Positions 12,660 through 16,347 of a DNA stretch of 64,000 nt are shown one piece after another. The stretch lies in contig NZ_JADKSG010000001.1 of assembly GCF_015350805.1 (NCBI RefSeq), positions 310,001-374,000 on the forward strand, given 5' to 3'. The notes beneath the pieces are model-generated. The model searched no databases and was not told where the DNA came from. It saw nothing but the letters and a program-made list of their open reading frames with translations. The stretch is from Herbiconiux sp. VKM Ac-1786. Lineage in GTDB: Bacteria > Actinomycetota > Actinomycetes > Actinomycetales > Microbacteriaceae. Numbering within the stretch: the first letter of the stretch is position 1; each line of letters begins with the position of its first letter. Position numbers and translations under genes: made by a program.

Positions 12660-12926
12660 CTACCTGCGGTACGCATCTCGCCGGCGAGTGACGGTCACGA
12701 TCTCGATCACGACCTGCTGGTCGAGCACGCGGTAGATCACGCGGTACTCGCCGCGCCGCGCCGAATAGAGCGGGTGCAGAGGTTCTCGCAGCTGTTTGCC
12801 CACCCGCTTCGGGTTCTCGCGGAGAGCGCCCATGATGAACTCGAACGCCGCCGCCGCGACCTTCTCGGGCAGCTGCTCGGCGAGTGCGCGAGATGCGGCG
12901 CGCGTGAAGCGGACCTCGAATGTCAC
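12660..12926 (-). CDS. RelE/ParE-family toxin
   Basis: This 88-residue toxin has the compact RelE fold: MTFEVRFTRAASRALAEQLP, a helix pair, then LREPLHPLYSARRGEYRVIYRVLDQQVVIEIVTVTRR, with basic residues (R, K, R) where RelE-type ribonucleases bind mRNA in the ribosomal A site. It probably cleaves translated mRNA when free of its partner. The GTG start overlaps the antitoxin stop in GTGA, so the two are translated together with antitoxin first, the usual order. Confidence 0.93.
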   Translation of the reverse strand: MTFEVRFTRAASRALAEQLPEKVAAAAFEFIMGALRENPKRVGKQLREPLHPLYSARRGEYRVIYRVLDQQVVIEIVTVTRRRDAYRR

Positions 12927-13207
12927 TCGGGGAGCCGCCCGGCGCGACGCATCGCCTCCCGGACGTCCTCGGCCGAGCGGGTCTCGCCGTCGGCGAGGTC
13001 GCCGAGGCCGATACGGATGGCCTCCACCGTCTCGCTGTCGCCGAGGATCTCGACCGTCTCGATCAGCGAGTCGTAGTCGTCGGCGCCCAGGATGACGGCG
13101 GCCCGCGCGCCGTTGCGCGTCACATCGAATCGTTCATGGGTGGTCGAGGCCGACTCGACGATCTTGGAGAAGTTCGCGCGGGCTTCGGCGACAGGGATGA
13201 CAGCCAT
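12923..13207 (-). CDS. YefM/Phd-family antitoxin
   Basis: The 94-residue protein begins MAVIPVAEARANFSKIVESA and continues FDVTRNGARAAVILGADDYDSL, the standard Phd/YefM DNA-binding half, followed by a charged C-terminal tail (RSAEDVREAMRRAG) that would wrap the toxin. It neutralises the RelE partner and represses the operon. A long upstream extension of this frame is not real: TAGAAT at 13215-13220 lies seven bases before ATG 13207 and suggests a leaderless message. Confidence 0.93.
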   Translation of the reverse strand: MAVIPVAEARANFSKIVESASTTHERFDVTRNGARAAVILGADDYDSLIETVEILGDSETVEAIRIGLGDLADGETRSAEDVREAMRRAGRLPE

Positions 13208-13346: not shown

Positions 13347-13604
13347 ATGGCAATCAACGACGACGACATCACCACCGAGGGTGCAGGCGGCGGCGAAGGC
13401 ACCGCTGACGGCGGCGCCAACCCCGGCGGCCACGACGGCGGGGCCGATGGCTCGGCTTCGGCCGGCGAGGGCACCGCAGACGGCGGCGCGAACGCCGACG
13501 GCCACGACGGCGGAGCCGACGGCTCGGCCGACGAGGGCGAGGGCACCGCAGACGGCGGCGCCAACCCTGGCGGCCACGACGGCGGGGCCGACGGCTCGGC
13601 GTGA
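13347..13604 (+). CDS. Repeat-containing Gly/Asp-rich peptide, possible RiPP precursor
   Basis: An 85-residue peptide of unrecognised family. A 15-residue acidic N-terminus (MAINDDDITTEGAGG) precedes three near-identical 24-residue units: residues 16-39, 40-63 and 64-85 (last one 22). Each reads GEGTADGGAN, then PG or AD, then GHDGGADGSA. It has no Cys, Lys, Arg or aromatic residue and would be strongly acidic. It looks like a leader plus multiple cores. GGAG lies six bases before ATG 13347; another ATG at 13308 would add 13 residues (SDGSNRRR...) and has a poorer site. Its TGA overlaps the GTG of the JmjC oxygenase (GTGA), which ties its synthesis to that enzyme. Substrate role is an inference from context. 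Confidence 0.7.
   Translation: MAINDDDITTEGAGGGEGTADGGANPGGHDGGADGSASAGEGTADGGANADGHDGGADGSADEGEGTADGGANPGGHDGGADGSA
13392..13601 (+). repeat. Three tandem 72-bp coding repeats
   Basis: Units run 13392-13463, 13464-13535 and 13536-13601; the third lacks the final two codons. Variation is mostly silent third-base change plus two substituted dipeptides, so the repeat is conserved at protein level. The units define the repeated part of the putative precursor peptide. Confidence 0.9.
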
Positions 13605-14878
13605 CGATCGACATCGAGCGCGGGTCGGTCGCCCGGCCCGCGCTCTCCCGCTGCATCTCGGTCGCTCCGGAGGAGTTCGACCGGGAGTTCTGGGGGCGGA
13701 AGCCCCTCCTCACCAAGGCTGAGAACCTTCCCGAGGGCTTCACCGACCTGATGACCGAGGCCGCGGTCGACGAGCTCGTCAGCTCGCGCGGGCTGCGCAC
13801 ACCCTTCATCCGCATGGCGCACGAGGGCTCGGTGCTGTCCCCCGCGACGTACACCGCGCCGGGCGGCTTCGGCGCCGAGGTCGGCGACCAGGTCAGCTCC
13901 GAGAAGGTGCTCCAGGAGTTCGCCGCCGGTGCCACGATCGTGCTGCAGGGTCTTCACCGCACCTGGCCGCCGCTGATCGACTTCACCCGACGGCTCGTCG
14001 ATGACCTCGGGCATCCGATCCAGGTGAACGCCTACATCACCCCCGCCTCCTCGCGCGGGTTCGACCCCCACTACGACGTGCACGACGTGTTCGTGCTGCA
14101 GATCGCGGGCGAGAAGCACTGGCGCATCCACGCCCCGGTGCACGTCGACCCCCTGCGCGATCAGCCCTGGGGCGACCACCGCGCCGAGGTGGCCGAGGCC
14201 GCCACGCACGAGCCCGTGATCGATGCCGTCTTCCAGCCGGGAGACGCGCTCTATCTCCCGCGCGGGTGGATCCATTCGGCCGAGGCGCTCGGCGGCACGA
14301 GCGTGCACCTCACCATCGGCGTCGCCGCCTACACGCGCGCCGACGTGGTGCAGGCGCTGATCGGGTCGCTCGGTGACGTCGCGTCGCTGCGGTCGTCCTT
14401 GCCCGCGGGGCTCGACTTCTCCGACCCCGCTGCGCTGAAGTCGGTGGTCGACGAGACCCTCGCCGCGGTGCAGCAGGCGTTCGCCCAGATGGCCGGCAGC
14501 GGCTCCGTTGCCATCGGCGAGGCGGATGCGGTGGTCACCGTCTCGAACAGCCTCGCCTCCCGCTTCGCCTCGGCCACGCGCCCCGAGCCGGTGTCCCCGC
14601 TCGCCACGGTCGACTTCATCGCGGCCCTCGACGAGACGTCACGGGTGCGCTGGCGCGGCTCGCTGCACGCCGCCGTCGAGCTGACGAGCGACGGGAAGAG
14701 CGTGCGCATCCGCACCGCGAGCAAGACCGTGGCGCTGCCGGCCGAGGCCGAGGCGGCGGTGCGGCGACTGCACGAGGGCGGCGAGCTCGCGCTCGCCGAG
14801 CTGCCGGGGCTCGACGCCGCCAGCGCGGTGGTCGTCGTGCGGCGACTGCTGCGCGAGGGCGTCCTGGTTCCTGCGTGA
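13601..14878 (+). CDS. JmjC/cupin-4 domain 2-oxoglutarate oxygenase
   Basis: The 425-residue protein is a cupin-4/JmjC hydroxylase related to bacterial YcfD (RoxA) and MINA53/NO66. The Fe(II) facial triad is visible as H157-Y-D159 and H225 (GWIHSAEA), inside DPHYDVHDVFVLQIAGEKHW and YLPRGWIHS. A C-terminal part after about residue 330 looks like the family's winged-helix/dimer region. It should hydroxylate a protein or peptide side chain (Arg, His, Asn or Asp in known relatives) using O2 and 2-oxoglutarate. The GTG start overlaps the repeat peptide stop and its own stop overlaps the next gene (GTGA at both joins), so three products are made together. The adjacent peptide rich in His, Asp and Asn is the obvious candidate substrate. 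Confidence 0.88.
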   Translation: MTIDIERGSVARPALSRCISVAPEEFDREFWGRKPLLTKAENLPEGFTDLMTEAAVDELVSSRGLRTPFIRMAHEGSVLSPATYTAPGGFGAEVGDQVSSEKVLQEFAAGATIVLQGLHRTWPPLIDFTRRLVDDLGHPIQVNAYITPASSRGFDPHYDVHDVFVLQIAGEKHWRIHAPVHVDPLRDQPWGDHRAEVAEAATHEPVIDAVFQPGDALYLPRGWIHSAEALGGTSVHLTIGVAAYTRADVVQALIGSLGDVASLRSSLPAGLDFSDPAALKSVVDETLAAVQQAFAQMAGSGSVAIGEADAVVTVSNSLASRFASATRPEPVSPLATVDFIAALDETSRVRWRGSLHAAVELTSDGKSVRIRTASKTVALPAEAEAAVRRLHEGGELALAELPGLDAASAVVVVRRLLREGVLVPA

Positions 14879-15816
14879 CCGCCACCGCGCTCCCCGCGAC
14901 GGGAGTCGTGCCGCCCGCCGAATGGGCGCCCTGCAGCGACCGCTCGCGCGAGCGCGACGACCCCCTGTTCGCCACCGGGTCGCGCGGGCTGCAGTGGTTC
15001 CTCGTCGAGGTGTCGAGCGGGTGGGGCACGCGGGCGCTGCTCGATCCGCCGTTCGACGCCGAGCTGGGGCGGGCGCTGGTCACGCGCATCGAGAGCGCGG
15101 GGCTCCGGCCGCTGGCGATCCGGCGCACGGGGCGGAACCCGTCCCGGCTCGAGGCGCAGACGACGTGGCGGTGGGCGTTCGTCGACTCGCGGCCGGGGCA
15201 CGAGGGCATCCGGTGGGGTGAGGTGGATGCGCCCGAGAAGCTGCTCGAGGTGCCGCTCGACGGAACGGCGGGACGCGCATCCGATCGCCCGCTCTTCGCG
15301 GTGTGCGCGCACGGTCGGCATGACCGCTGCTGCGCGGTGCGCGGGCGGCAGGTGGCGTCGCGGCTGGCCGAGGCGTTCCCCGAGGAGACGTGGGAGTGCT
15401 CGCACCTCGGCGGCGACCGGTTCGCCGGCACGATGGTGCTGTTCCCGCACGGGCTGTACTACGGGCGGGTCGACGACGGCGATGCCGCTGCGGTGGCGGC
15501 GGCGTACGGCGAGGGGCGGGTGGTCGAGGAGTTCTACCGCGGGCGGAGTGCGCTGACGCATCCGGTGCAGGCGGCGCAGCACTTCGCGCGCGAGGCCACG
15601 GGCGACGACGGGCTCGAGGCGTTCGCGCCGCTCGACGAGCACTGGAATGGGGTCGAGGGGCCGGGGGCGCGGTGGGTCGTGACGCTGGCCGGCGACGACG
15701 GGCCGGTCGTGGTCGAGCTCGCCGAGCATCTGTCGGAGCCGTTGCTGTCGACGTGCGACACGACGCGGCCGGGGCAGGTTCGGCAGTGGGAGCTGGTATC
15801 GCTCAGGCGCGAGTGA
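14875..15816 (+). CDS. Sucrase/ferredoxin-like protein ([2Fe-2S] thioredoxin-fold)
   Basis: This 313-residue protein belongs to the sucrase/ferredoxin-like family (related to yeast Apd1). The C-terminal thioredoxin-like domain carries VCAHGRHDRCCAVRG (C144, C152, C153) and CSHLGGDRFAGTMVLFPHG (C175, H176). Relatives bind a [2Fe-2S] cluster with Cys and His ligands; here the second histidine of the yeast CSH..GGH pattern is an Asp (D181), so ligation may differ. It may feed electrons to, or work after, the JmjC oxygenase; the overlapping GTGA join supports a shared function. The N-terminal half has no motif I recognise. Confidence 0.85.
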   Translation: MTATALPATGVVPPAEWAPCSDRSRERDDPLFATGSRGLQWFLVEVSSGWGTRALLDPPFDAELGRALVTRIESAGLRPLAIRRTGRNPSRLEAQTTWRWAFVDSRPGHEGIRWGEVDAPEKLLEVPLDGTAGRASDRPLFAVCAHGRHDRCCAVRGRQVASRLAEAFPEETWECSHLGGDRFAGTMVLFPHGLYYGRVDDGDAAAVAAAYGEGRVVEEFYRGRSALTHPVQAAQHFAREATGDDGLEAFAPLDEHWNGVEGPGARWVVTLAGDDGPVVVELAEHLSEPLLSTCDTTRPGQVRQWELVSLRRE

Positions 15817-15867: not shown

Positions 15868-16347
15868 ATGTACGAGGTGCGCTGGCTGACGCCCGATCAG
15901 CTCCGCGCGTGGATCCGTTTCGAGGCCGTCGTCGAGCTGCTGCCCACCGTGCTCGACTCGCAGTTGCAGCGCGACTCCGCGCTCACGCACTTCGAGTACG
16001 TGGTGCTGGCGAAGCTGTCCGAATCGCCCGATCAGGTGCTGCGGATGACCGCCCTCGCCGCCACGACGAACAGCACCCTGCCCCGCCTCTCCCACGTCGT
16101 CTCGCGCCTGGAGAGCCGCGGTTTCGTCGAGCGGATGCCCTGCCCGGGCGATCGGCGGGCGACCAACGCCCACCTGACCGACGAGGGGCGCGCGAAGGTC
16201 GTCGCCGCGGCCCCCGGGCACGTGAACACCGTGCGGGAGCACGTGATCGATTTGCTCTCGGACGAGCAGGTGGAGCAGCTCGACGGCATCATGGCGACAC
16301 TGCTGCAGCGGCTCGACCCGACGAACACGCTGCGCATCCTGCCCTGA
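15868..16347 (+). CDS. MarR-family transcriptional regulator
   Basis: The 159-residue regulator has the MarR winged helix: LTHFEYVVLAKLSESPDQVLRMTALAATTNSTLPRLSHVVSRLESRGFVERMPCPGDRRATNAHLTDEGR. The wing motif CPGDRRAT is characteristic. MarR proteins dimerise on palindromes and release on binding small phenolic or oxidising ligands. ATG 15868 is chosen: the upstream in-frame extension would translate the operator palindrome itself. TACACT ends six bases before the ATG, so the mRNA may be leaderless. No obvious target gene is adjacent; the glycosylase follows 95 bases later. Confidence 0.92.
   Translation: MYEVRWLTPDQLRAWIRFEAVVELLPTVLDSQLQRDSALTHFEYVVLAKLSESPDQVLRMTALAATTNSTLPRLSHVVSRLESRGFVERMPCPGDRRATNAHLTDEGRAKVVAAAPGHVNTVREHVIDLLSDEQVEQLDGIMATLLQRLDPTNTLRILP

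Follow-up and report, generated by a model that had tools for sequence, protein, structure and literature searches.

The stretch of DNA considered here (64,000 nucleotides, hereafter the window) belongs to Herbiconiux sp. VKM Ac-1786 (assembly GCF_015350805.1, contig NZ_JADKSG010000001.1, positions 310,001 to 374,000). We propose that three genes on its forward strand, at 13347–15816, form a compact modification unit similar to those of ribosomally synthesized and post-translationally modified peptides (RiPPs). The first gene encodes an Asp-rich repeat peptide, the second a JmjC oxygenase and the third a Suc_Fer-like protein. From sequence comparison and structural modelling, it is probable that the JmjC protein modifies the peptide under the guidance of its leader, and such a RiPP-like pair is the best account of the locus because linkage, anatomy and fold, taken together, point to it. 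The supporting features are the gene pair and its co-inheritance, the leader/repeat anatomy of the peptide, purifying selection on its gene, the intact iron site of the enzyme, and a predicted C-terminal fold like that of a RiPP recognition element (RRE). Production of a chemically modified peptide of this family is probably widespread among actinobacteria.

The peptide gene (13347–13604; ATG at 13347, stop codon at 13602–13604) is followed by the JmjC gene (13601–14878; GTG at 13601, stop codon at 14876–14878) and by the Suc_Fer-like gene (14875–15816; GTG at 14875, stop codon ending at 15816). A GTGA overlap is present at both junctions, and the coordinates and overlaps given in the original prediction, which was made without database searches, are exact. 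The acidic triple-repeat peptide of that prediction is also borne out. It has 85 residues, including 14 Asp, 3 His and no Cys, and consists of a leader-like N-terminus, MAINDDDITTEGAGGG (13347–13394), the DDDITT part of which is kept across relatives, followed by three units of 24, 24 and 21 residues of the form EGTADGGAN(P/A)(G/D)GHDGGADGSA, with short linkers between them. In translation and by Tandem Repeats Finder, the units are EGTADGGANPGGHDGGADGSASAG (13395–13466), EGTADGGANADGHDGGADGSADEG (13467–13538) and EGTADGGANPGGHDGGADGSA (13539–13601). The array has a period of 72, 2.9 copies, 86% matches and a score of 322, compared with 78 for the next-best array of the window. Neither Pfam nor NCBIfam gives a match to the peptide at E≤1. 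It is nevertheless counted as a real gene because differences concentrate at third codon positions, which in a comparison of 13 equally long peptide genes hold 2400 of 3178 pairwise differences (412 at first and 366 at second positions). All seven differences from the peptide gene of genome G010 are synonymous; between the JmjC proteins of these genomes, identity is 91%. From these sequence comparisons, the peptide is a gene under purifying selection.

In 69 peptides of the nearest clade, a pattern search for the units gives three in 66 peptides, two in two and four in one, with leader and motif unchanged, as had been predicted. Asn7 and His11, two positions not forced by the pattern, are each conserved in 204 of 206 units; the pattern partly required the Asp-Gly positions, several of which are also invariant in an unforced alignment of 14 peptides. 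More distant relatives carry the cores GGADGGADGG, DADGTDGDATD, TDQGVxGGTYGPRDA or PTEDDENLDAPGEHSKDTGDEA. At three loci, L171 (G166), L178 (G409) and L147 (G300), aberrant cores (PTEDDENLDAPGEHSKDTGDEA; SADGTDQGVxGGTYGPRDA) come after a similar leader, and no Suc_Fer gene is adjacent. Most relatives keep the N-terminal leader as [IL]xDDDITT or L[ST]DxDIETV (more broadly L[ST]DxDI[ET]T or DDDITT), sometimes with a following GG; L126, L136–L139 and L020 have no clear leader stretch. A persisting N-terminal stretch, with or without GG, resembles the double-glycine leaders of RiPPs, and the peptides combine a conserved leader with multiple or variable cores, as RiPP precursors do. No Cys occurs in the 35 listed peptides, and Asp is abundant in all of them. 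His is rare in one of the two major clades: of 18 listed peptides of the DADGTD type, 12 have none and six have one, and two each are present in L146 and L159, beyond those 18. In three loci of the GGADGG clade (L122, L138 and L139), Gly or Gln stands in place of the His preceding DGGADG. Four divergent peptides were scanned with Pfam; none matched a calcium-repeat family, and one had a weak, below-cut-off match to a ribosomal-peptide leader family (E value 0.34).

The association of the peptide with the JmjC gene was followed in three sets of genomes. In 60 relatives from the family, 21 have the JmjC protein (E≤1e-20) and 17 have an in-frame peptide (E≤1e-3), all 17 being JmjC-positive; the remaining four JmjC-positive genomes (G028, G037, G040 and G050) have divergent repeat peptides upstream. 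An extra weak peptide match in the fragmented genome G008 (residues 1–23, on another contig, E value 1.5e-4) probably represents the far side of a break between contigs. Within the genus, three genomes out of 16 (G006, G007 and G014) have neither peptide nor enzyme. Among named genomes, the best 80 of at least 557 JmjC relatives were examined, from Microbacteriaceae, Cellulomonas, Rhodococcus, Rhodococcoides, Gordonia, Dietzia, Williamsia, Antrihabitans and mycobacteria, and all 80 have an upstream peptide, 68 recognized by a leader-motif script and 12 by eye. A fixed rule (45–190 residues, no Cys, acidic, small residues, stop codon between −170 and +40 relative to the start) is passed by 76 of these 80 JmjC starts and by none of 1311 other long open reading frame (ORF) starts at the same loci, the latter being ORFs of at least 250 codons taken mechanically on both strands, many of which are not genes. 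The four exceptions are a locus cut by a contig end (L043), two that are partly N-masked (L075 and L116) and one whose peptide is split between two frames (L097).

The third set, 396 genomes of the phylum, contains 62 with a JmjC protein at E≤1e-25, in which 68 loci (L119–L186) were examined, second pieces of one gene not being taken separately. Above a break at 218 bits there are 56 loci, of which 52 have the peptide; L161 and L164 are cut by contig ends, so that the proportion is 52 of 54 testable loci. For two of the 52, L152 and L159, the peptide was recognized after the start had been corrected. Below 218 bits, none of 12 loci has the peptide. These 12 (L173, L175–L177 and L179–L186) constitute a second group of lower-scoring JmjC_2 paralogues, with neither repeat peptide nor Suc_Fer in the stretch examined. 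With the in-frame peptide profile (E≤1e-6), 17 of the 396 genomes have a match, and every match adjoins a JmjC gene. A candidate modifying enzyme thus stands beside the precursor in both wider sets, and the absence of the peptide beside most orthologous JmjC genes, set down beforehand as the outcome that would tell against a dedicated substrate, is not what is found. In an unrooted tree of the JmjC proteins from 65 of the phylum loci (L161 and L164 were left out, and L183 is absent), one branch with support 98/96 separates ten peptide-less rows from all the peptide-bearing enzymes. On the side of the latter are also the peptide-less L140, L163 and L173, the last on a long branch and unsurely placed. 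Peptide type requires nine changes on this tree, compared with 31.8 in shuffles (none of 200 as low), a clustering that relatedness alone would also give.

The JmjC protein matches JmjC_2 (PF08007; E value 4e-29). As originally predicted, its HxD...H iron site is intact: H157, D159 and H225, as well as K172, are invariant in 47 of 47 aligned sequences, including that of the window, and by analogy K172 would be the Lys that binds 2-oxoglutarate, all of which is expected of a JmjC oxygenase. An AlphaFold2 model built with these 47 sequences has a mean predicted local distance difference test score (pLDDT) of 93.5 and a predicted template modelling score of 0.90. The closest solved fold is that of NO66 (Z score 29.5, root-mean-square deviation 5.0, 386 residues aligned, 22% identity), followed by MINA53 (Z score 28.3, deviation 5.1, 382 aligned) and YcfD (Z score 19.6). 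Sequence comparison with solved enzymes gives E values of 9e-44 for NO66 and 2e-34 for MINA53. The full-length match of the single-chain model covers the JmjC, helical dimerisation and winged-helix domains that make up the NO66/MINA53 architecture. Two features distinguish this family from its solved relatives. A pair following the HxD motif, H161-D162, is invariant among the 47 sequences and specific to them. An invariant Gly240 aligns with the Ser of the NO66 motif HLTLS, a contact to His in that enzyme.

The C-terminal winged-helix domain (14603–14875, predicted structure) has a fold like that of PqqD and other RREs. Its 91 residues, modelled alone, reach a pLDDT of 94.9. The best matches are the corresponding parts of MINA53 (Z score 13.0, 84 residues aligned, 1.8 Å) and NO66 (Z score 10.5), and the next is PqqD (Z score 8.1, 82 aligned, 2.4 Å). 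There follow RREs solved together with a leader, TbiB1 (Z score 7.4, 72 aligned, 2.6 Å) and PbtF (Z score 7.4, 74 aligned, 2.9 Å), and then TigE (6.9), ThcOx (6.8), YcfD (6.6), MccB (6.5), McbBCD (6.0) and TruD (5.9). The likeness to RREs is one of modelled fold, and on its own it is weak.

The third protein matches Suc_Fer-like PF06999 (E value 1.6e-17, above the cut-off), in agreement with its original assignment. Its invariant residues are C20, C144, D150, C152, C153, H177 and C294, and a 28-residue stretch of the profile matches a [2Fe-2S] ferredoxin of the Aquifex type (E value 7e-4). Where the second His of Apd1 would be expected, the stretch reads HLGGD, with D181 present in 115 of 117 sequences; Apd1 has His at this position. 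A Suc_Fer gene lies 3' of the JmjC gene on the same strand at 71 of the 80 best named loci and at 43 of the 52 peptide-bearing phylum loci. At the other phylum loci, it is convergent in L153, the sequence ends early in L152, and seven have none in the stretch examined. None of the 12 low-scoring JmjC loci has an adjacent Suc_Fer gene. Seventeen genomes without an adjacent Suc_Fer gene (eight of the nine named ones, L104 being left out, and nine from the phylum sample) were searched throughout. No Suc_Fer protein was found at E≤1e-8 in 12 of them (G382, G248, G299, G300, G384, G451, G452 and G454–G458, seven being of unstated completeness), all of which keep the peptide-JmjC pair; the other five encode one elsewhere in the genome (31–38% identical). 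The Suc_Fer protein is therefore common but dispensable rather than obligatory, and the original prediction needs amending on this point.

We propose the following pathway. The 85-residue peptide would be the precursor, with a short acidic leader (MAINDDDITTEGAGG) and three near-identical cores. The JmjC protein would act as an Fe(II)/2-oxoglutarate oxygenase whose C-terminal RRE-like winged helix binds the leader while its pocket moves along the repeats. The reaction would be β-hydroxylation of core Asp residues (xDGGADG in the window, DADGTDGD in the sister clade). This is the likeliest mark because of the chemistry of JmjC enzymes and because Asp is common to all the peptides, His being rare in one clade; given leader-guided modification, we favour Asp as the modified site, with a little less assurance than the pair itself. 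Asp, His and Asn had all been named as possible targets. Of these, Asp stands, and His and Asn are unlikely as general targets, few His being present in the DADGTD-type peptides, although either could be the target in the nearest clade. The product, with several hydroxy-Asp side chains, would be suited to hard metal ions, Fe(III) or Ca(II) for example, and the Suc_Fer-like [2Fe-2S] protein may serve as an accessory redox partner, for instance by reducing the bound iron or by keeping the iron of the oxygenase reduced. That the modified peptide binds metal is a guess from chemistry, to which we give rather less than an even chance.

Several observations weigh against this account. All the RRE matches except PqqD have Z scores below 8, where likeness may be mere common arrangement, and chains that are not RREs interleave with them, including the carbamoyltransferases GdmN (Z score 7.6) and NovN (Z score 6.9) and a few others. 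When 31 C-terminal domains were searched by hmmscan against Pfam and NCBIfam, neither PqqD nor any RRE family matched at E≤1. The best matches of the domain, NO66 and MINA53, are not known to use a leader. A protease that removes the leader, or an exporter, is common in RiPP loci, if not universal, and neither is conserved in about 5 kb around 24 representatives (ORFs of at least 110 residues), which is unusual for a secreted RiPP. The cores of the nearest clade hardly vary at His and Asn (204 of 206 units for each), and the 218-bit break used in counting the phylum loci was chosen from the data. Two loci above that break lack the repeat peptide: upstream of the JmjC gene, L140 (G189) has an acidic non-repeat ORF, and in L163 (G351) a peptide of this kind is missing altogether. 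Suc_Fer is not adjacent at either locus, and both enzymes lie on the peptide-bearing side of the tree; a change of substrate is possible in these lineages.

Two of the alternatives are variants of chemistry inside the favoured peptide-JmjC pair. The enzyme might have kept the chemistry of its closest solved relatives, NO66 and MINA53, both histidyl hydroxylases, and hydroxylate His (or Asn) in every GxHDGG core, with a change of specificity in the His-poor clades. The near-invariance of both residues in the nearest clade agrees with this. However, 12 of the 18 listed DADGTD-type peptides have no His to hydroxylate, the His before DGGADG gives way to Gly or Gln in three loci of the GGADGG clade, and invariant Gly240 occupies the place of the Ser that contacts His in NO66. 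We regard His or Asn hydroxylation as unlikely, yet it is the strongest of the alternatives. The JmjC protein might instead cross-link the cores or cleave them oxidatively, since 2-oxoglutarate-dependent backbone cleavage and macrocyclisation are named for RiPPs, in one abstract and one title. JmjC enzymes of this architecture are known as hydroxylases, and most of the listed cores lack aromatic and Lys residues, so we hold such oxidations to be improbable.

Two further alternatives remain. If the peptide were a disordered protein of metal or polyanion type that needs no modification, the JmjC and Suc_Fer proteins could share its operon while carrying out a separate iron or redox task. The Asp-rich repeats, the two iron proteins and the near-invariant core of the nearest clade fit this, but it leaves unexplained why the pair is kept without Suc_Fer, and likewise the RRE-like domain and the leader; its chance appears as slight as that of cross-linking or cleavage. 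Least probable of all is that the enzyme hydroxylates a ribosomal protein, as do NO66, MINA53 and YcfD, with the peptide acting as a regulator or decoy. Architecture and fold are indeed those of ribosomal oxygenases. Against this, enzyme and peptide are jointly present or absent in a patchy manner (both are missing from three of the 16 genomes in the genus), the peptide has a leader/core anatomy, and its type tracks the enzyme tree. The multi-core RiPP-like substrate of the original prediction remains the preferred interpretation, with support from the linkage to JmjC, the leader/repeat pattern and the modelled RRE-like fold.

A G+C-rich RNA hairpin is predicted 3' of the peptide stop codon, within the start of the JmjC gene (13616–13645, forward strand). 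Within 95 bases of the peptide stop, a perfect stem of at least nine pairs is present at 44 of 126 loci, compared with 18 of 1218 windows drawn at random from these loci, and stems of at least 11 pairs occur at 26 loci and in one random window. No stem of seven pairs is found at 60 of the 126 loci, several mycobacteria included, and in the window itself the 141-base stretch is only a little more stable than shuffled sequences when folded (z −1.35; 16 of 200 as good). The hairpin may be a differential-expression element by which more peptide than enzyme is made. Visual inspection of the 130 bases before the peptide gene, in 44 loci as well as the window, showed a −10-like spot repeatedly in Microbacteriaceae and Cellulomonas; GTTTGAA or GTTTGGAA is common to some Rhodococcus. 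A scan for sigma-70 promoters gave no match, and an iron or zinc box was rejected, no common regulator box being seen by eye in these sequences (no motif finder was used).

Around the unit, no other gene is conserved in the 24 representatives, no cluster of ORFs (of at least 110 residues) spanning more than two loci. No Pfam match to MNIO (DUF692) exists among the three proteins and there is no conserved fourth gene, which sets the unit apart from the MNIO metallophore RiPPs of bufferin/methanobactin type. Directly upstream in the window, and divergent from the peptide operon, are genes for a ParE-like toxin (PF05016; E value 6e-9) and a Phd/YefM antitoxin (PF02604; E value 9e-18) at 12660–13207 on the reverse strand. 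Directly 3' of the operon is a gene for a MarR-family regulator (PF01047; E value 1e-9; 15868–16347, forward strand), whose presence beside the operon is not conserved among the 24 representatives. A role in defence was rejected, since the sole PADLOC match, a caspase model on the JmjC protein (E value 0.009), was taken as chance. Plasmid carriage was also rejected: 46 plasmid records all had less than 60% identity, and the 20 listed had at most 35.7% and were mostly Streptomyces proteins annotated as 'cupin domain-containing protein'.

If the proposal is correct, the pair represents a RiPP-like family that is widespread and has a minimal core of two genes, and NO66-type JmjC oxygenases gain a new function. 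It would also account naturally for the winged helix of human NO66 and MINA53, whose shape is that of a leader-recognition domain. A poly-hydroxy-Asp peptide encoded by a gene would add a new kind to the metal ligands known in biology. A bolder version, which we consider doubtful as a whole, is that of a multi-core RiPP class throughout the Actinomycetota, in which oxygenases of the NO66/MINA53 lineage with a built-in leader-recognition domain install many β-hydroxy-Asp residues on Asp/Gly repeats, giving an intracellular polymer that binds hard metals, with a [2Fe-2S] partner, and in which the eukaryotic ribosomal oxygenases with an RRE-like winged helix descend from such enzymes.

The peptide family seems not to have been described before, as we found no paper on it in a search that covered few subscription papers or preprints and no supplements. 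Among known systems, the eukaryotic ribosomal histidyl hydroxylases NO66 and MINA53 (PF08007) share the full-length fold (Z scores 29.5 and 28.3) and the HxD...H site with the enzyme described here, which differs in its linked private repeat peptide, its 22–24% identity, its H161-D162 pair and its Gly240 in place of the NO66 Ser. The YcfD-type arginyl hydroxylases of ribosomal protein L16 are also cupin-4 JmjC enzymes whose C-terminal part matches, but they are more distant (Z score 19.6; E value about 1e-14 to 1e-19). The Apd1/Suc_Fer-like thioredoxin-like ferredoxins have the PF06999 domain in common with the third protein. Apd1 has a 2Cys2His [2Fe-2S] site (PMC11126956); here C144, C152, C153 and H177 are invariant, but D181 stands where the second His is expected. 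BipG and BpmG, JmjC proteins of the biphenomycin RiPPs (PMC12707348, PMC12257519), likewise act in a RiPP pathway, BipG being headed as an ornithine hydroxylase (PMC12707348); in the parts of these reports consulted they work with MNIO, radical SAM, peptidase and transporter genes, and no Asp-rich repeat precursor is mentioned. A related observation stands in one passage of the RRE-Finder 2025 report (PMC12710340), which does not itself give a precursor, repeat family, taxonomic spread, Suc_Fer partner or target residue. According to this passage, some of the RRE domains that are fused to PF08007 in fish and algae have RRE-like folds, and the closest bacterial JmjC homologues (about 30% identity) occur in RiPP-like contexts; these RRE-fused JmjC proteins possibly belong to the same wider family as the enzyme of Herbiconiux.

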